64,000 nt of DNA from Nitrospira sp. (GTDB lineage: Bacteria > Nitrospirota > Nitrospiria > Nitrospirales > Nitrospiraceae), in the NCBI GenBank assembly GCA_030123565.1, contig CP126122.1, positions 4,230,800 through 4,294,799 of the forward strand, written 5' to 3'. A program made the position numbers and the translations under genes. Positions 701 to 7,938 of the stretch are shown piece after piece (position 1 is the first letter of the stretch; every line of letters begins with the position of its first letter). Below the pieces are notes generated by a model that did not search any database, had not been told where the DNA came from, and worked only from the letters and a program-made list of their open reading frames with translations.

Positions 701-1915
701 TTATACCGGCGCGCGCCCGTAGCTCAATTGGATAGAGCATCGGACTTCGGATCCGAGGGTTGGGGGTTCAAGTCCCTCCGGGCGCACCATAGAATCAATA
801 GGTTGCATCGTTTCTTTCGGTTCTTCCACTTCTTCGGTCACGGTTTTGGTCACGGTTCCAGTCAGACTTCCCCGATTCACTGCGTCCCGAAGATGTCCTG
901 GTGCTAGGTGCGCATACCGCATAGTTGTCTCAATATCACGGTGCCCGAGGATTTCCTTCACCGATACGAGATCGACCCCTGCCATGACACGGCGGCTGGC
1001 TGCGGTATGCCGAAGTGAGTGCCAGCACGCCCCGATGATCCCCGCTCGCCTCAGGCCAGGCTCAAACGAACGCCGGAGGAATGCCCGGCTGTCCATAGGG
1101 TGGGTCACGTCCTTTAAGCCTGGGAACACCCAAGCCGACCGAAGAAACGAGTCAAATGACCTCAGAATCGTCTTGGCTCCTTCGCTCAAGGGCACATGCC
1201 GGGTTTTGCCTCCCTTTGGCATAGGCAGGGTCAGGACCTCGTTCTCCAGATCGACCTGGTTCCACCGCAGCGTGAACTGTTCTCCTCGTCTCAACCCTGT
1301 CTCGACGGCGAACGCGACTAATTTCCAGTCATCCGGGGGCATCACGCCCCTCAACCGGTCAAGTTCTTCACTCGTCAGGAATCGCGTCCGGTTTGCTTCC
1401 GGAAAGAACTTGAGGCTGGACACCGGGTTCTTGGTGAGCTTGTCATCTTTCACGGCCAACATGAGCACGTGGCGAAGGAAGGCAAAATGTCTATTGATCG
1501 TGGCATCCGCCCACAGCCGTTGCGGTTCCTTCGTATTCACCTTCATCTTGGCGCGCATTCTGGCTTGAATCCGCCGAAGATCGTCTACCGTAATCTGGGT
1601 GACTAGGCGACTCCCAATAAGCAGGGACCAGCGCCGACCATAGAGTACTTCGCCAGCTTTGTTTCGGTTCACAGTTCCTTCGAGGTAGCGTTTGATCCAA
1701 GCCCGAAGGGTGATGTCCTTCCGGGGCGCAAACTTCTCCGGGAAATAGGTCCCTTCCCGAATATCGGCTTTCAATCGACCATAGAGCGCTTTGGCTTGTG
1801 ATTTCGTATCACACCGGAACCAGCGCTGCCGCCCGTGCTCGTAGAGGCGCACCCACCACCCTTCGCGGCCCTTTCGCTGGGTGATCCCTCTATCCTTTCC
1901 CGCTTTTCTTGCCAC
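701..1915 (-). CDS. Tyrosine recombinase / island integrase
   Basis: Site-specific recombinase of the phage-integrase family, predicted to integrate and excise the island at tRNA-Arg. Over 404 aa there is an arm-binding N-terminus, a core-binding helical domain (about 65-160) and a catalytic domain. Visible catalytic residues: R209/R210 in TGLRRGEQ, K237, H299 and R302 in HSLRH, H325 in LGH, and nucleophile Y334 in TMRYAH. After residue 375 the frame runs antisense through the att core inside the tRNA and stops at 701, so the last 14 residues are encoded by chromosomal sequence. The start overlaps the end of the CGNR gene by 26 nt, which suggests translational coupling. Confidence 0.93.
   Translation of the reverse strand: MARKAGKDRGITQRKGREGWWVRLYEHGRQRWFRCDTKSQAKALYGRLKADIREGTYFPEKFAPRKDITLRAWIKRYLEGTVNRNKAGEVLYGRRWSLLIGSRLVTQITVDDLRRIQARMRAKMKVNTKEPQRLWADATINRHFAFLRHVLMLAVKDDKLTKNPVSSLKFFPEANRTRFLTSEELDRLRGVMPPDDWKLVAFAVETGLRRGEQFTLRWNQVDLENEVLTLPMPKGGKTRHVPLSEGAKTILRSFDSFLRSAWVFPGLKDVTHPMDSRAFLRRSFEPGLRRAGIIGACWHSLRHTAASRRVMAGVDLVSVKEILGHRDIETTMRYAHLAPGHLRDAVNRGSLTGTVTKTVTEEVEEPKETMQPIDSMVRPEGLEPPTLGSEVRCSIQLSYGRAPV
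713..789 (+). tRNA. tRNA-Arg (anticodon UCG)
   Basis: A full cloverleaf can be folded: acceptor GCGCCCG/CGGGCGC, D stem GCTC/GAGC, anticodon stem TCGGA/TCCGA with loop CTTCGGA (anticodon TCG at 747-749), and T arm with the TTCAAGT loop. The terminal CCA (787-789) is encoded. The gene is the insertion site of the adjacent integrative element. Its 3' half is duplicated at 7894-7938, so the tRNA is kept intact at the left junction. Confidence 0.97.
745..789 (+). repeat. attL core (45-bp direct repeat, tRNA 3' half)
   Basis: The sequence runs from the anticodon loop through the encoded CCA and is identical to 7894-7938. The bases on either side (744 and 790) differ from those flanking the other copy, which sets the exact limits. 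Confidence 0.92.
836..857 (+). repeat. Left pair of GGTCACGGTT decamers (possible integrase arm sites)
   Basis: Two direct copies of GGTCACGGTT start at 836 and 848, one helical turn apart, 46 bp inside the left att core. They lie in the 3' coding region of the integrase (residues about 354-360). The same decamers occur near the right end in the same orientation. Binding by the integrase is inference. Confidence 0.55.
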
Positions 1916-2555
1916 GGCGGCTCTCCTTTCGTTCTCCGGTCTTCTGGGCCTCGCGCCACTTCCTCGCCGCGACTCGGTTCTGGCAGCGCGGCTGGCAGTA
2001 TAGCTGGTCGCGCCTGATCGCTAAATAGATCCTGGCGCATTCCGGACAGCGCCGAATGTAATCCCCGGACTGGGCCAGGAGGTGGACAAATCGGTATTCA
2101 AACTCCTTGGCCTTGCGTTTCGCGATCACGAAGATCGTTCCGGTCTCGTCGGAGAAGCCGCCCGGCGATACCACGACCAGCGTCATCTGCGGAAAGGTGA
2201 AGGCGGTGTGCCCCTCGTGCCAATACTCCTCTAACTGCGCCAGGGTTGCGGCCTGAATGTCCTGAGCTTCTTTTCGGCTGGGAATCGTCTGATAGTTCTT
2301 TGCATTGGGCACCCCTTCTACGCTCCAGCCACTTTCCGGGGCCACCATCCCGCCGTATCGGTCCCCTGTCTCATCCACAAAGGCCGCGACTTCAAACGCT
2401 AAGAGTGTCCACTCCGTGGGCGTCAAGCCCTCCAGATTGGTCTGTAAAAACTGGAGTACCCACCCGACGGCGCCATCCGGCATCGTGCGGATGCGCTCGA
2501 TCGCTTTCTGGTACTCCAGTTGGAATTCCTGATCGGCTTTCCCCTGTGCGCTCAT
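1890..2555 (-). CDS. CGNR-type zinc-finger protein
   Basis: A 221-aa protein with a C-terminal finger: CPEC, about 13 residues, then YCQPRCQNR followed by a basic helix and a Lys/Arg-rich tail. This matches the CxxC...CxxxCxNR layout of CGNR zinc fingers found in putative DNA-binding regulators. The N-terminal 150 residues are not recognised. The start chosen (MSAQGK) has an AAGGA-like site upstream; the frame is open to 2639, which would add 28 residues. It overlaps the integrase start and may regulate it. The function in the island is not known. Confidence 0.7.
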   Translation of the reverse strand: MSAQGKADQEFQLEYQKAIERIRTMPDGAVGWVLQFLQTNLEGLTPTEWTLLAFEVAAFVDETGDRYGGMVAPESGWSVEGVPNAKNYQTIPSRKEAQDIQAATLAQLEEYWHEGHTAFTFPQMTLVVVSPGGFSDETGTIFVIAKRKAKEFEYRFVHLLAQSGDYIRRCPECARIYLAIRRDQLYCQPRCQNRVAARKWREAQKTGERKESRRGKKSGKG

Positions 2556-2758
2556 GCCTTCTGTTCCTTTCTCATGCCAAACCCTCTCCGTATTCCTGAT
2601 CCCAACACCACTGAAAAAAGTGTCCTGCTGAAGGGCCATCTCGACCTGAATTTGTTTGGCAAGTGTACCGCCTCCTTGCTAATGGCTGTCAAGAATAATC
2701 ACGCCTAAAAAATATCAGGCGTGATCTCGCCACAGCCATTCTTTCAAGGAGGTGCCCG

Positions 2759-2965
2759 ATGGTTAGTACAAAATTGATCACCATTCGAGAAGCCGCGAAT
2801 CGATTAGGACTCAAGGAAAGCACGATCAGGAAATACATCCTGAAACGGCAGATCGCCTATGTGAAGCCGTCTGTGCGAGCCGTGCGGATTCCTATTGAAG
2901 AACTGGAACGGATTCTGGCTGCCGGACTGAGGCCGGTGATTCCTCAGGCAGAAGGTGCCCGATGA
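2759..2965 (+). CDS. Excisionase-like / MerR-type helix-turn-helix protein
   Basis: A 68-aa single-domain protein. ITIREAANRLGLKESTIRKY forms the helix-turn-helix and VRIPIEELERIL resembles the wing of AlpA/Xis-type DNA-binding domains. A strong AAGGAGG sequence precedes the ATG by 7 nt. It opens the plus-strand block divergent from the CGNR/integrase genes and overlaps the Rep start by ATGA. It is a candidate recombination directionality factor, or regulator of the divergent promoter. Confidence 0.8.
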   Translation: MVSTKLITIREAANRLGLKESTIRKYILKRQIAYVKPSVRAVRIPIEELERILAAGLRPVIPQAEGAR

Positions 2966-3675
2966 GCCGCTGGAAGGAGTTCCGGCGGGAGCCCATTGCC
3001 GGCGAATGGACGCGAAAGCAGAAACGAGGCTATCACCGGGTCCGGTCGCTGCTCTGGTTCTGGGAATGCCATCAATTCCAAGTGCTCTGGGTCACGCTAT
3101 CCACGGCAGAAGGCGGGGACGCCGAGAAGCTGACGTACCACCACAAGCAACTGCGCCAGCGGATCGAACGCCAACTCGGGTTTCAAGGCTTGGAGTATTA
3201 CCAGGTCCGGACGGAGGAAGGGCATGGCGTGCTCCATATCTTCTGGGCCTGGCGGGTGCCTGATGGGGAACGCGCACGCCGATTCTGGATCTCCCAGGAA
3301 TGGCTCTCGTCACAATGGCGAGCCCTCCACGGGGCTCCCGTCGTCTGGATCAAGGCTTATCAACCCAGCCATCGTTCGCGGAACCGCCTCAGCCGCTACG
3401 TCATCAGCCAATACGTCCAGGATCAATGCGGCTACGTGAACATGTGTTGGTCCTGGAAACGCTCCCTTGGCTTTCCCATCAGCCGACTCTGGGAAGAGAT
3501 GCGGCACCAATGGTCTACCCGGAATGCGTATAGACGGATCAGGGGTGAGATCGAAATCCCGCGCATTGTGTTTCTCAAGACCTGGGAGGATCTGCTCTCG
3601 GGGCATCCCATTTGGTTTTGCGGCACCATTCTGCAACTCGTGTTGGGGAAGGGGCTCGTCTATCAGGAGGTGTGA
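2962..3675 (+). CDS. Putative rolling-circle replication initiator (HUH-like Rep)
   Basis: A 237-aa protein whose layout resembles HUH-endonuclease Rep proteins. Motif-1-like strand VLWVTLST is at 41-48. Motif-2-like GVLHIFWAW is at 89-97, with H92 but Phe where the second His normally sits. A motif-3-like helix with two tyrosines, RYVISQYVQDQ (Y146, Y151), follows, like the YxxKY signature. It starts inside the stop of the excisionase-like gene (ATGA overlap) and ends 3 bp before the Cys-rich gene, so the three are probably co-translated. The assignment rests on motif order; the incomplete HUH means activity is uncertain. Confidence 0.55.
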   Translation: MSRWKEFRREPIAGEWTRKQKRGYHRVRSLLWFWECHQFQVLWVTLSTAEGGDAEKLTYHHKQLRQRIERQLGFQGLEYYQVRTEEGHGVLHIFWAWRVPDGERARRFWISQEWLSSQWRALHGAPVVWIKAYQPSHRSRNRLSRYVISQYVQDQCGYVNMCWSWKRSLGFPISRLWEEMRHQWSTRNAYRRIRGEIEIPRIVFLKTWEDLLSGHPIWFCGTILQLVLGKGLVYQEV

Positions 3676-3678
3676 GGG

Positions 3679-3921
3679 ATGATCTGGCACCGATGTAGTC
3701 TCAAACTGCCAAGCCTGTTTGGTCCAGCCTGTTGCGGACGGGAAGCGACCACGTACGACCGGGCGCGGAAAGCCTGGCTTTGTCCTGAGCATGCGAAGGA
3801 ACGGTTATGTGAGTTCTGCCAGGTCGAACGAGCCTGGGTACGGTTCTGTTATTCGGAGAATGAAATAGTGTGCGAGGTCTGGCTCTGCGTGGACTGTGCA
3901 GGGCTTACGGGGCGACGGTGA
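3679..3921 (+). CDS. Small Cys-rich (zinc-binding) protein
   Basis: An 80-aa protein with ACCG, CPEH, CEFC and CVDC pairs, consistent with one or two zinc-binding knuckles. A GGAGG lies 13 nt before the ATG, inside the end of the Rep gene. It is the third gene of the excisionase-Rep unit. No family could be named; accessory role in replication or DNA binding is a guess. Confidence 0.6.
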   Translation: MIWHRCSLKLPSLFGPACCGREATTYDRARKAWLCPEHAKERLCEFCQVERAWVRFCYSENEIVCEVWLCVDCAGLTGRR

Positions 3922-4435
3922 CACGCTCTAATCAATTTCTCCCTGTCACCCGTCCACTATCCTCTACGGGTGAGAGGGAACATGCTCCGTCCTTATATCA
4001 GGCGGCGATGCGTCAGCTTGGCCGCCGCTCTGGGTGATTGTTGGTTACAAGCGTAGAGAAGAGAACAGGGATACTGAAACCATGGGGAGATTCGTCACGC
4101 AAAGACTCCGCCCAACGAGGCCGCCCGGCCGTTCCGGACCACTGGACCGGACGGCCGGGGGGATCGGGGGCGCAGCCCCCGCTTCACTTGATTCATATGG
4201 TCAAAGTAGGACATATTCTGAGAGCGACCCTTTTTCCCATTGGCGCAAACCGATCGCAACACCTCCATGTGCTATGTGGCTTTAGATACATTCATTTCTA
4301 CGTCACAATTAAATGTCGGCATGTGCCCGTCATTCATCCGCGATGGGTACTTCAATAATCACGGTTAACTTCGCTTGACTCGGGCACTGTTCGTTTGCCG
4401 GAACCATTAGACTCCTTTGAGAAGAGATTGTTGTA
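3922..4435. other. Intergenic stretch between replication block and cargo genes
   Basis: No convincing gene in 514 bp. The two overlapping frames at 4034-4358 are rich in Arg/Pro/Gly and look non-coding. A GC hairpin CGGGGG-CGCAG-CCCCCG lies at 4165-4181 and could end the Rep transcript or act as a single-strand structure. Base composition shifts from GC-rich to AT-rich at about 4200, which may mark the junction of the backbone with separately acquired cargo. Confidence 0.5.
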
Positions 4436-5017
4436 GTGATCCCATCGCATAATGAATCGGGAGTTTTGCCTCCTTTCCTAGGTGCTACTCCTGTTGAGCC
4501 GTCCGCAATGGCTCCTTATCGGGTCGCGTTACTTGATCTCGTAAAGAAATTTGCTTCAAATCAAGAACGCAGGAACATTCTCGCCGGTTTTATCGGTTAC
4601 AGGGCTGAATTGCAGAAAGTCGGATTTCTAACGGGATTTCAGTGGGTGGGTGGTAGTTTTGTGGAAAATGTGGAAACAACGTTGCATCGCCCGCCGCGAG
4701 ACATCGACATAATCACCTTCTCTTATCGTCCTGACAGCTATCGGGACGAAACTAATTGGGAAGGCTTTGTATTATCTCGACCGGATTTATTCGACCCTCA
4801 AGAAAGCAAGAAAAAATATTCATGTGATGCCTATTTCGTGGATCTGTCTCTTGGAAGCCCTACATATTTGATCGATCAGACTAAATATTGGTTCGGTTTA
4901 TTCTCGCATCAGCGGGACACTTCTTTGTGGAAGGGGATGCTTGAAATTCCCCTCACTGATGATACGGAAGTTGCTGCACTATTCGGTGCAGGAGGCACCA
5001 ATGTTGCGCAAGATTAA
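4436..5017 (+). CDS. Nucleotidyltransferase-fold protein (DUF6932-like)
   Basis: A 193-aa protein with a minimal nucleotidyltransferase signature: WVGGSFVEN (70-78) followed by RDIDI (88-92), i.e. the GS(x) and DxD metal-binding pattern of the MNT/polymerase-beta superfamily. GTG is the assumed start; an ATG at 4508 is the alternative and leaves the motif intact. It overlaps the next gene by 17 nt. Such two-gene operons in islands often act as toxin-antitoxin or abortive-infection systems, but that role is inferred from context only. Confidence 0.6.
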   Translation: MIPSHNESGVLPPFLGATPVEPSAMAPYRVALLDLVKKFASNQERRNILAGFIGYRAELQKVGFLTGFQWVGGSFVENVETTLHRPPRDIDIITFSYRPDSYRDETNWEGFVLSRPDLFDPQESKKKYSCDAYFVDLSLGSPTYLIDQTKYWFGLFSHQRDTSLWKGMLEIPLTDDTEVAALFGAGGTNVAQD

Positions 5018-5939
5018 GTTGGATGGTCTGGAAGCCGAGTTGTCTACTGTCAATGCATTGCTGGCGAAAGCTGCGGAAGCGGGCGACTTCGTCGGGAAGC
5101 TTCAGTTTTCAAAACGAAAGCAAGTCTTGGAAACAGATATTGAAGCGATCAGTCACACGTCCGAAAAGCTTGCGAGTGTCGCCTTATTATTCGGTGGAGT
5201 GCCTGTTCTTGGTTCTCGCGGAATTTCAGCCGACTTCGCCGGAAATGCATTGGAGAACTTCCAGGACCTGGTCGCCAAGACATTTGCTAAGTCGGAATGG
5301 GGATCTCTGGCTGAAAGGGGTCCCATTCCCTTGAGGGATTCCTCACATTTGATGATCACGGAAGTAGCTAGAGGCTCCTTTGGGTTTGTGTTGAATGAAC
5401 TCTCTGAGCAGACGGAAATTGCAGATACGGCTTTAAAGTTGCAGGTTGAAGAAGTTGCTACGCTTTTGCAGCGAACGGCATCGCCAAATGAATTAGATTT
5501 TGAGGAAGCGGCTGAAAGCTTGGACTCAAGGGTTCTAACGGCTTTAAAGAATTTCTTTGTGACTTTGGATTCCAACGGGGCAACGCTAAGGGTCGTGGAA
5601 GATGTTGCAGATTTCACGCTTGATGAGGCGGCTATTCATCGAGGAAGGCGACGCACTGAAGCCACCCAGATTCAGGAGAATGATCTCACAATAACTGGCA
5701 CACTGACGGGCGTTCTCCCCGACCATAGGAAGTTTGAGGCCAAAGCCGAGGATAATAGAACGGTATACGGTACGGTCTCCAAGGAAGGTATCAAGCAGTT
5801 TGACGGACTGGTAGCTAAAGGCCAAACGCCTATTGGCAAGAGATGGAACCTTAAAATTCGCCGTCGCGTTATAGCCCCATGGAATCGTCCATCTAGAGAG
5901 ATAAATACTCTCCTGGAGTTCGTCGGACAAGTTGATTAG
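5001..5939 (+). CDS. Unknown partner of the nucleotidyltransferase gene
   Basis: A 312-aa protein I do not recognise. The start at 5001 is set by AGGAGG five bases upstream, inside the preceding gene. Residues 5-50 are predicted coiled coil (Leu/Glu/Ala/Lys heptads). The middle contains EVARGSFGFVLNEL and an acidic helical stretch, and the C-terminal third is rich in beta strands with basic residues (RWNLKIRRR). No signal peptide or TM segment. Tight coupling with the nucleotidyltransferase gene suggests the two proteins act together. A terminator follows at 5966. Confidence 0.6.
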   Translation: MLRKIKLDGLEAELSTVNALLAKAAEAGDFVGKLQFSKRKQVLETDIEAISHTSEKLASVALLFGGVPVLGSRGISADFAGNALENFQDLVAKTFAKSEWGSLAERGPIPLRDSSHLMITEVARGSFGFVLNELSEQTEIADTALKLQVEEVATLLQRTASPNELDFEEAAESLDSRVLTALKNFFVTLDSNGATLRVVEDVADFTLDEAAIHRGRRRTEATQIQENDLTITGTLTGVLPDHRKFEAKAEDNRTVYGTVSKEGIKQFDGLVAKGQTPIGKRWNLKIRRRVIAPWNRPSREINTLLEFVGQVD

Positions 5940-5965
5940 AGATGGTTAAAGCGCGCAGATCTGCT

Positions 5966-5993
5966 GATGGGGGAAGCAAAATCCCATCTTTTT
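5966..5993 (+). terminator. Intrinsic terminator of the nucleotidyltransferase pair
   Basis: Stem GATGGG/CCCATC (5966-5971 and 5983-5988) followed by TTTTT. It lies 27 bp after the stop of the partner gene and ends this two-gene operon. Confidence 0.7.
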
Positions 5994-6175
5994 AGGATAT
6001 AGGGAGCGTGCAAATCCTGCCTTCTTACTCTTGGCTCTAGTGTCGATTTTATTCCCAGTTGGGAGTCCGCGTCATTCGCACCACTGATGTTAGAGATTGG
6101 CTATCAATTAGCAATGAACAGTGCGGCAAAGCAAATTGAGACGTACGGCACAGACATAACTCAGGGCGGTCACGA

Positions 6176-6706
6176 TCACTGGTCCGTCTCTTTCCCTGTC
6201 AAAAGGTTGCGGATATGGCGGTCGGGTCGGGCGTAAAAGGTCTTTCCTACAGAGGTGTGCACCTGTGCCCTTAGGAAATGAACTTTGAGTCCATGCGCCG
6301 TTCCAAGATAATCCTTTACGCTTGGAATCCAATTCTCATCCCCCAGCCCAGGCTTTGCGGACACATAGAAGTTGGCTGATTCACCGTCTCGAAGTCTGAC
6401 TGGAAGTTTCGATGAATATTCGGGAGCGCCGGGGATTTGGAATAGTTTGGTCCGCTTGAATGGGAGCGACCAGCCAATCCCTGTAATTGTGACTTCCCTC
6501 GCACCAAGGTTTACCGCAGAGATGGTGACATAATCTCGAGAAGGCATACCCGTTTGCACAAGCGTATTTAGGCTGGCTGTTACCTTTATATGGAGCCGCC
6601 TAGTTTTTGTAGCGAGGTAGAGAGAGGCTATAACAGCAGAAATGGTTCCCAAGGCGGAAAACCACGGGGCAAAGCTGTTAATGAATTGCCAGGTCTGTTT
6701 GTCCAT
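6176..6706 (-). CDS. Single-TM hypothetical protein
   Basis: A 176-aa protein with one N-terminal membrane helix (residues about 10-32, FAPWFSALGTISAVIASLYL) followed by a soluble beta-rich domain. The domain has the pattern of a small immunoglobulin-like fold (ISAVNLGAREVTITGIGW). It resembles the widespread uncharacterised one-TM proteins seen in accessory islands. It is transcribed toward the nucleotidyltransferase pair (convergent). Function unknown. Confidence 0.6.
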   Translation of the reverse strand: MDKQTWQFINSFAPWFSALGTISAVIASLYLATKTRRLHIKVTASLNTLVQTGMPSRDYVTISAVNLGAREVTITGIGWSLPFKRTKLFQIPGAPEYSSKLPVRLRDGESANFYVSAKPGLGDENWIPSVKDYLGTAHGLKVHFLRAQVHTSVGKTFYARPDRHIRNLLTGKETDQ

Positions 6707-6901
6707 GTAGGCGCGAGATGCGATTTCGTATGAGATGATATTCTACGCAGAATCACTCGCGCAATCATCTCTCGAGAATAGCGGGGCCAGTATTGTGAGC
6801 CATTTTTGAATGCTGGATGCGGCCATCGAACTAACTCCCTGAAGCTCGAAGCCCATGGTGAAATTGGGATTCAAACTGGGCTGCGGGATCCCGTCTTACG
6901 A

Positions 6902-7045
6902 TAGAAATCTGGTCACGGTTTTGGCCTCGATTGCACGTATGCCTCAGTCATCATTGATCTTCATTGATTGATGCAAAAAACATTGATCTATAAAGAGAAC
7001 ATATCCACCTGTCCTCCCTGATCGCTGTCAGTCTCTAGGGTACTT
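6902..7045. repeat. Internal degenerate copy of the island right end
   Basis: Aligns with 7719-7890, including the GGTCACGGTT decamer, the GATGCAAAAAxCATTGATCT block and the segment that encodes the integrase tail in reverse. It stops just before the point where the att core would begin. The two copies bracket the RelB/YafQ genes as direct repeats. The rest of the 6707-7142 gap holds no gene I can support. Confidence 0.8.
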
Positions 7046-7142
7046 TTTACGGCGTCTTGGCCAATGGTCTCGTTTCTGGGGGAAGGTGCGATTGTTCTGG
7101 CAGATGATTGACTTGTGCGACAAATGGCGTACAATGTGAAAC

Positions 7143-7421
7143 ATGAGGAAGGCGTCGCATCTGTCCATGTCAGACCGTATTAATGCCCGTATCGATATCG
7201 GCCTTAAAAAGAGAGCCGTGAAAATCTTCGATCGCCTGGGGATTAGTGAGGCAGAAGCCATACGGCTTTTTTATGCTCAGGTTGAACTCCATCAAGGTAT
7301 TCCCTTCCCTCTCACCATTCCAAATGCCACGACCATTGCCGCCTTTGACGAAACCAACAAGCCGGAGAAACTCCCTTCCTTTAAAACCTTCCGCGCCCTC
7401 AGAAACCAGACGGGCGTATAG
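7143..7421 (+). CDS. RelB/DinJ-family antitoxin
   Basis: A 92-aa protein. The N-terminal ribbon-helix-helix DRINARIDIGLKKRAVKIFD and GISEAEAIRLFYAQV match the RelB/DinJ DNA-binding domain, and the C-terminal tail would wrap the toxin. A second possible start is ATG at 7170 (MSDRIN). The toxin gene starts 2 bp after the stop. RelB-type antitoxins usually repress their own operon with the toxin as co-repressor. Confidence 0.9.
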   Translation: MRKASHLSMSDRINARIDIGLKKRAVKIFDRLGISEAEAIRLFYAQVELHQGIPFPLTIPNATTIAAFDETNKPEKLPSFKTFRALRNQTGV

Positions 7422-7423
7422 CC

Positions 7424-7693
7424 TTGCTCACCATCAAACCCACCAGTCGTTTTCTCAAAGATCTTAAGTTAGCCAAGAAACGAGGACAGGACATCGATGA
7501 TCTCGAGGACATCATTGACCTCTTACAATTCCAAAAAGTTCTGCCTGTCAGAAACAGAGATCACGCCCTTTCTGGGAATTGGAAGCATCACCGCGAATGT
7601 CACATTGCCCCAGACTGGCTGCTGATTTATCGAACGGATGATGAATTCCTTTACTTGGAACGTACCGGCTCCCACGCTGATCTGTTCGAGTGA
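7424..7693 (+). CDS. YafQ/RelE-family mRNA interferase toxin
   Basis: An 89-aa ribosome-dependent ribonuclease-type toxin. RDHALSGNWKHHRECHIAPD, WLLIYR and the terminal HADLF keep the His/Asp/His/Phe pattern of YafQ active sites. The start is TTG two bases after the antitoxin stop. The pair lies next to the island's right end, between direct repeats, and may stabilise the element by post-segregational killing. Confidence 0.9.
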   Translation: MLTIKPTSRFLKDLKLAKKRGQDIDDLEDIIDLLQFQKVLPVRNRDHALSGNWKHHRECHIAPDWLLIYRTDDEFLYLERTGSHADLFE

Positions 7694-7718
7694 ATGTGCC
7701 AGATCGTCTCTCATTTGT

Positions 7719-7890
7719 TAGGAAATCTGGTCACGGTTTTGGTCACGGTTCGGTCACGGTTTTAGGCACGATCGCAGGTACGCCTCAGTCGTCATTGATC
7801 CTCATGGACTGATGCAAAAAGCATTGATCTATAAAGAGAACATGTCCATCTGTCCTCCCTGATCTCTGTCTGTCTCTAAAGTGCTTTGTG
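7719..7890. repeat. Island right-end segment (second copy)
   Basis: Intact copy of the right-end sequence next to attR, with three decamers at its left side. Read on the minus strand from the att core it encodes the alternative integrase tail ending in DMFSL and TAG. The 546-bp gap 7694-8239 otherwise holds attR and the upstream region of the Pal-like gene. Confidence 0.8.
7729..7761 (+). repeat. Right triplet of GGTCACGGTT decamers (possible integrase arm sites)
   Basis: Three direct copies start at 7729, 7741 and 7752, spaced 11-12 bp, about 130 bp before the right att core. A further single copy is at 6911-6920 in the internal right-end duplicate. Regular spacing at both ends of the island is typical of recombinase or directionality-factor binding sites. 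Confidence 0.55.
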
Positions 7891-7893
7891 CGC

Positions 7894-7938
7894 CTTCGGA
7901 TCCGAGGGTTGGGGGTTCAAGTCCCTCCGGGCGCACCA
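7894..7938 (+). repeat. attR core (45-bp direct repeat, tRNA 3' half)
   Basis: Second exact copy of the tRNA-Arg 3' half. It has no 5' half of a tRNA in front of it, so it is not a functional tRNA gene. It marks the right boundary of the island; chromosomal sequence resumes at 7939. Confidence 0.92.

Follow-up and report, generated by a model that had tools for sequence, protein, structure and literature searches.

How does a toxin–antitoxin pair come to lie inside the end of a genomic island, bracketed by two copies of that end? The question is raised by a 7.1-kb island in Nitrospira sp. (GenBank assembly GCA_030123565.1, contig CP126122.1, a single-contig genome of 4.6 Mb). We analysed it within a window, i.e. 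the whole 64,000-nt stretch from 4,230,800 to 4,294,799 of the contig; coordinates below are window positions, on the forward strand unless stated otherwise. The target is a tRNA-Arg gene with anticodon TCG (713..789; ARAGORN), and a perfect 45-bp direct repeat gives the left att core (745-789) and the right att core (7894-7938), the latter identical to the tRNA 3′ end. The site is empty in G021, the closest relative by flanking genes (aroK 94% identical), where the tRNA runs directly into DNA resembling the window past 7938. A tRNA gene and its displaced 3′ fragment bracket an integrase-bearing insertion, which is the arrangement of a tRNA-targeting integrative genomic island. The tyrosine integrase (701..1915, reverse strand; an ORF with PF00589 at E 4e-26) adjoins the tRNA within the island and, when integrated, reads through the core into the tRNA. 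Besides an HTH/excisionase-like gene, the island has conserved backbone ORFs and cargo that includes a DUF6932 protein, and the RelB/YafQ pair sits at its far end. The remaining backbone ORFs had no match in Pfam or NCBIfam, and no conjugation genes were recognised in the window island with these collections. The backbone is common to all compared islands up to about 4212 (window 3941-4212), after which the contents differ; the region between it and the right end (4213-6903) is a cargo hotspot. The DUF6932 cargo is also present in G004, an island with a single right end.

The right part of the island is ordered RE1, link, RelB/YafQ, RE2 and core. RE2 (7722..7893), identified by its repeats, right-end alignment and tail reading, is the working right end, and RE1 (6904..7051) is an inner right end whose core is missing. 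The two are 85-87% identical over 136-146 bp (6911-7056 and 7752-7897; blastn E 1.6e-41 in the whole genome), and blastn found no third copy of the right end in the whole genome. An earlier sequence-only reading had proposed this homology, placing the copies at 6902-7045 and 7719-7890; its spans were right to a few bases and are refined here. It had also claimed that the first copy breaks off just before the expected att core, to be checked against related right ends. In that alignment, RE1 keeps to the family up to core base one or two and diverges from there: its homology ends at ~7051, no more than about 2 bp from where the core would begin, and the link beyond has no core homology. RE2 starts with GGTCACGG-type repeats (arm-like repeats at 7722-7773; repeat and blastn matches), which RE1 carries only in part. 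In the left end, 23 bp of them recur at 836..858 as the GGTCACGGTTTTGGTCACGGTTC repeat, identical to part of RE2 (repeat and blastn matches). Occurring on both sides of the attachment site, the GGTCACGG-type repeats are probably arm-type sites of the integrase. The left-end repeat falls inside the integrase coding sequence (TVTKTVTE).

Both right ends were also said to read as an alternative integrase tail, and the same 22-residue tail is indeed found when the integrase frame is extended through the core: EAVKSTLETDSDQGGQVDMFSL in RE1, where it is a relic (6988-7051, reverse strand), and EGAQSTLETDRDQGGQMDMFSL in RE2 (7829-7893, reverse strand). The right end probably encodes the integrase C-terminus used in the circular island, and the C-terminus would then differ between the two states, with a tRNA-derived tail when integrated and the RE2 tail in the circle. 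Among 16 right ends regarded as functional, the nonsynonymous-to-synonymous ratio of changes was ~0.32 in the tail frame, compared with ~1.17 and ~1.15 when the same strand was read in its two other frames, and variation in the tail frame clustered at third positions (permutation p 0.005); since related sequences are pooled in these counts, they are indicative only. From this pattern of substitution, the circular-form tail looks to be under selection. Phage Mx8 has attP inside int, and there too integration swaps the integrase C-terminus, so that the free and integrated forms encode different tails (PMC6070905; PMC4383910). Unlike Mx8, the island targets a tRNA gene, and its predicted circular-form tail is encoded by RE2.

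Between the two right ends lies an intact toxin–antitoxin pair. A sigma-70-like promoter, called from its match to the consensus (TTGACT-16-TACAAT; 7108..7135), precedes a RelB/DinJ-family antitoxin (7143..7421; PF04221 E 3.6e-12, TIGR02384 above cut-off) and a YafQ-type toxin of the RelE/StbE superfamily (7424..7693; PF15738 E 1.5e-35, E. coli YafQ structures E 1.5e-20). The toxin passed TIGR02385 (RelE/StbE) and scored 75 with TIGR00053 (YafQ family), below the cut-off of 87.25. As in the E. coli DinJ-YafQ type II system, the antitoxin gene stands directly before the toxin gene and the DH, AHxxPDW and GxHAxLF motifs are kept; apart from the sub-cut-off TIGR00053 score, nothing about the window proteins is unusual by that comparison. 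In every context, the left boundary of the pair is the -35 hexamer of this promoter. What adjoins it on the left varies, being the RE1-link, integrase residue 335 or integrase residue about 322. All ten copies of the pair in the genus sit at tRNA-Arg(TCG), with the tRNA end of one (G022) on a separate contig. In other genera, the homologous pairs lack neighbouring right ends of this kind and differ in their upstream DNA.

The link between RE1 and the pair (7052..7103), delimited by sequence comparison, holds a match to the end of an IS3-family element (7060-7087). It is homologous in all six genomes with this composite end, each of which holds such a match of ~30 bp; the matches are short (about 30 bp, 86-90%), with the G011 version the best (E 2.6e-5). 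Across the family, the same IS3-family end recurs in many genomes and is multicopy in several of them; the copies inspected sit upstream of an IS3-type OrfA. Two other origins for the link were considered and rejected. A degraded att core had no support, since, in tests with shuffles and control windows, three link versions showed no core homology (shuffle p 0.49-0.89), about half or more of the shuffles aligning to the core equally well. The link was not original DNA upstream of relB either, given the different upstream DNA of the homologous pairs in other genera. The IS3-family end suggests an IS-associated deletion of the inner core, with the IS as its possible cause. Because the RE1-link-pair junction is common to all composites, it formed once and then spread. 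On the alignments, the core that once ended RE1 was lost in a single IS-marked event before the six copies diverged. A different origin of the junction would be recombination of RE1 with a core-like site in an IS beside the pair, which would put the junction exactly at the crossover point. That RE1 homology ends about 2 bp or less from the start of the core fits this, yet alignment finds no core-like sequence in the link, where only a short CTT..GG resemblance can be seen by eye, and we consider such an event highly improbable. The sequence-only reading had described a composite island formed by adding the pair with a second right end. Composite it is, but it was not assembled in the window genome, as the junction with its IS3-family remnant is common to six genomes.

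To place these features, we searched 29 genomes from the genus and 175 from the family and retrieved the loci; draft contigs cut G022 and others. Four states were seen at tRNA-Arg(TCG) among the retrieved loci. First, a single right end without the pair occurs in G003, G004, G017 and G018, whose integrases are 92-95% identical to that of the window; such islands were to be looked for according to the sequence-only reading. Second, the composite end (RE1, link, pair, RE2, core) is found at six loci: the window, G001, G011, G019, G023 and G022, the last counted as far as its contig reaches. Third, G010 has a 0.9-kb mini-island consisting of tRNA/core, integrase residues 335-404, pair, right end and core, with the cores 935 bp apart. 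Fourth, an older lineage of the pair (about 83% DNA identity) lies by an integrase-tail fragment next to the tRNA in G001, G012 and G028; G001, Candidatus Nitrospira defluvii (FP929003), has it besides its composite end. In G012 and G001, a decayed right end and then a fossil core come after the older pair, and a further right end with a core lies beyond them. The fossil inner cores match at 37/45 positions with one gap (G012) and at 20/25 (G001), and 0/500 control windows were as good. We read these matches as direct evidence of tandem accretion at the tRNA-Arg(TCG) site. A scan of genome contigs with YafQ revealed no new composite, a plasmid search with the right-end region gave no match, and one viral contig had the integrase (92%) and backbone, with no pair or right end in the stretch examined. 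On that IMG/VR contig (L231 3041-4353), the integrase, backbone and tRNA core are accompanied by a second, distant integrase (31%) just past the tRNA, which is perhaps another element at the same locus.

The pair, right end and core are common to the composites and the mini-island, and diverged in the older lineage, while the RE1 side occurs only in composites. The right end that follows the pair is therefore the one to which the pair belongs. We consider it likely that the pair arrived as a non-autonomous mini-island in tandem (accretion), that the core between was lost, and that the composite end spread afterwards. The anatomy, the relatives that represent each intermediate state, the fossil inner cores, the IS end and the mosaic divergence are read from the DNA itself, and from them we infer the order of events. 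relB-yafQ would first have become linked to a family right end as core, integrase remnant, pair, right end and core, i.e. a non-autonomous mini-island. It would have been set down beside a single-right-end island at tRNA-Arg(TCG), in tandem, by the integrase of an intact island, presumably acting in trans. A later deletion, perhaps caused by the IS3-family element whose end lies at the break, would have taken out the core and the integrase remnant that separated RE1 from the pair and left RE1, IS end, pair, RE2 and core. The composite end would finally have spread between islands and species, with cargo swapped by homologous recombination, perhaps in RE1. No locus with a tandem of the window's pair lineage and an intact inner core was found among the loci searched. 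Accretion, as the sequence-only reading had it, is supported by the single-end islands, the G010 mini-island, the fossil cores of G012 and G001 and an RE1-type terminal sequence with intact core and no pair in G017. It is not necessary, however, that a full island was added second, since the pair occurs in these genomes as a non-autonomous mini-element with only an integrase-tail fragment.

In the reverse order, with the composite end ancestral, RE1 x RE2 recombination would have removed the pair to give single-end islands, and a deletion reaching from the integrase to the promoter would have given mini-islands. Mini-island breakpoints fall just left of the promoter, where they would be expected were the pair to select against being deleted, and direct repeats of 136 bp at 87% identity could recombine. 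Indeed, the G010 mini-island could be a deletion product of a composite and not its source, and some single-end islands might derive from loss of the pair between RE1 and RE2. An ancestral composite is nevertheless unlikely, because a right end without a core cannot be an original boundary: RE1 has none, yet G017 has an RE1-type end with core and no pair. The older pair lineage, arranged as core, stub, pair, right end and core, is also against it. The sequence-only reading was to be refuted if both repeats always flanked the pair, and they do not: 4 of the 10 pair copies in the genus lack an adjacent RE1.

Identities between composites were uneven along the right part of the island: 100% for the promoter, 94-100% for relB and yafQ and 88-92% for the link, compared with 57-93% for RE1-left, 67-88% for RE2-left and 57-97% for the right ends overall. 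Between the window and the other composites, the backbone was 87-91% and aroK 77-81% identical; the cargo between backbone and RE1 differed among the composites compared, and the composites were scattered on the local aroK tree. A pair that is 94-100% identical where aroK is only 77-81% identical implies that the composite end spread, and by these comparisons it probably moved horizontally between species. To judge from their uneven identity, RE1 and RE2 have probably since recombined mosaically with other right ends.

The same data bear on a simpler history, in which an in-place duplication of the right end was followed by insertion of the pair between the copies, with no second element involved. 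Such a local duplication would suit the 87% identity of RE1 and RE2 in the window, and copies from the same genome are slightly more alike (76.6%) than those from different genomes (74.4%), with 4/120 pairings as good. So small an excess argues against a recent local duplication but allows some gene conversion or shared ancestry. In G011, G019 and G023, by contrast, RE1 and RE2 share only 71-74% identity, which is no more than right ends of unrelated islands share, and a recent duplication is thus disfavoured by the divergence in three of the five composites. Mini-islands that join the pair to a right end and core without RE1, and the fossil tandem cores at the tRNA-Arg(TCG) site, also speak against local duplication, which we hold to be improbable.

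Accretion followed by core loss has consequences for how the island can leave. With only the outer cores left after loss of the inner one, the integrase would excise 745-7893 as a single unit that contains the pair, so that the pair would leave only with the whole island. While the two elements still stood in tandem, the island would have been free to go by itself and the pair could not have protected it; loss of the inner core would have brought the pair within the excised unit, where island loss leaves YafQ unopposed. Loss of the present island would poison the cell, as RelB decays and YafQ persists, in the manner expected of post-segregational killing. The pair may in this way stabilise the island. 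We raise as a tentative idea, less probable than the accretion itself, that a sub-kilobase toxin–antitoxin mini-island is mobilised in trans by full islands, docks next to them and becomes a permanent stabilising cap after inner-core loss, with deletions stopping at the promoter because the pair selects against its own loss.

Accretion of this kind is established in streptococci, e.g. Streptococcus salivarius, where CIMEs accrete next to related ICEs or IMEs, often distal to the target gene (PMC7563491). As in CIMEs, a decayed element without working recombination genes but with both att sites kept would have come to lie in tandem with an integrase-bearing relative (PMC7563491). Unlike in CIMEs, the parent is a small island with no recognised conjugation genes, the decayed part is a sub-kilobase toxin–antitoxin element, and the inner core was lost (PMC7563491). 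G010 is a decayed, integrase-less element bounded by att cores, and fossil inner cores remain in G012 and G001. The window has no inner att core between elements, as its link lacks core homology, and its island is therefore a former, now fused, accretion composite. The nearest known case with a toxin–antitoxin pair is the composite island CGI48 of Shewanella, for which stabilisation by HipAB of the captured GI21 was reported from experiment (PMC8978831). There too the captured part brings a pair beside its right attachment site. GI21, by contrast, is complete: inserted within CGI48, it keeps attachment sites of its own and is able to leave by itself, as the window pair would not be, and stabilisation of CGI48 was tested whereas that of the window island is predicted (PMC8978831). 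We take the window case to be CIME-like accretion combined with a presumably stabilising toxin–antitoxin pair, which is neat and not unprecedented; its unusual points are the sub-kilobase toxin–antitoxin mini-island and the series of intermediates. This series (single end, mini-island, fossil tandem, fused composite) illustrates how a stabilising pair can join a genomic island, and from the inner-core loss a testable rule may be drawn, namely that an island can be protected by a pair lying within its excision unit but not by one outside it. A full-text literature search returned no paper on Nitrospira with genomic island, tyrosine recombinase and toxin–antitoxin, and such islands seem little described in this nitrifier genus.

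The right-end family was also seen joined to other cores, with tRNA-Gln in G012 and G023 accompanied by more distant integrases, and a G004 island at tRNA-Arg(TCT) ends in sequence resembling the Gln-type core (loci L062 12025-12265, L069 14040-14280 and L058 3815-4055). Finally, the older pair copy of G012 has the start of yafQ interrupted by a ~180-bp MITE-like insert (L112 about 7490-7670) whose ends, GGAGTCTGTCCGAG...CTCGGACAGACTCC, are inverted.
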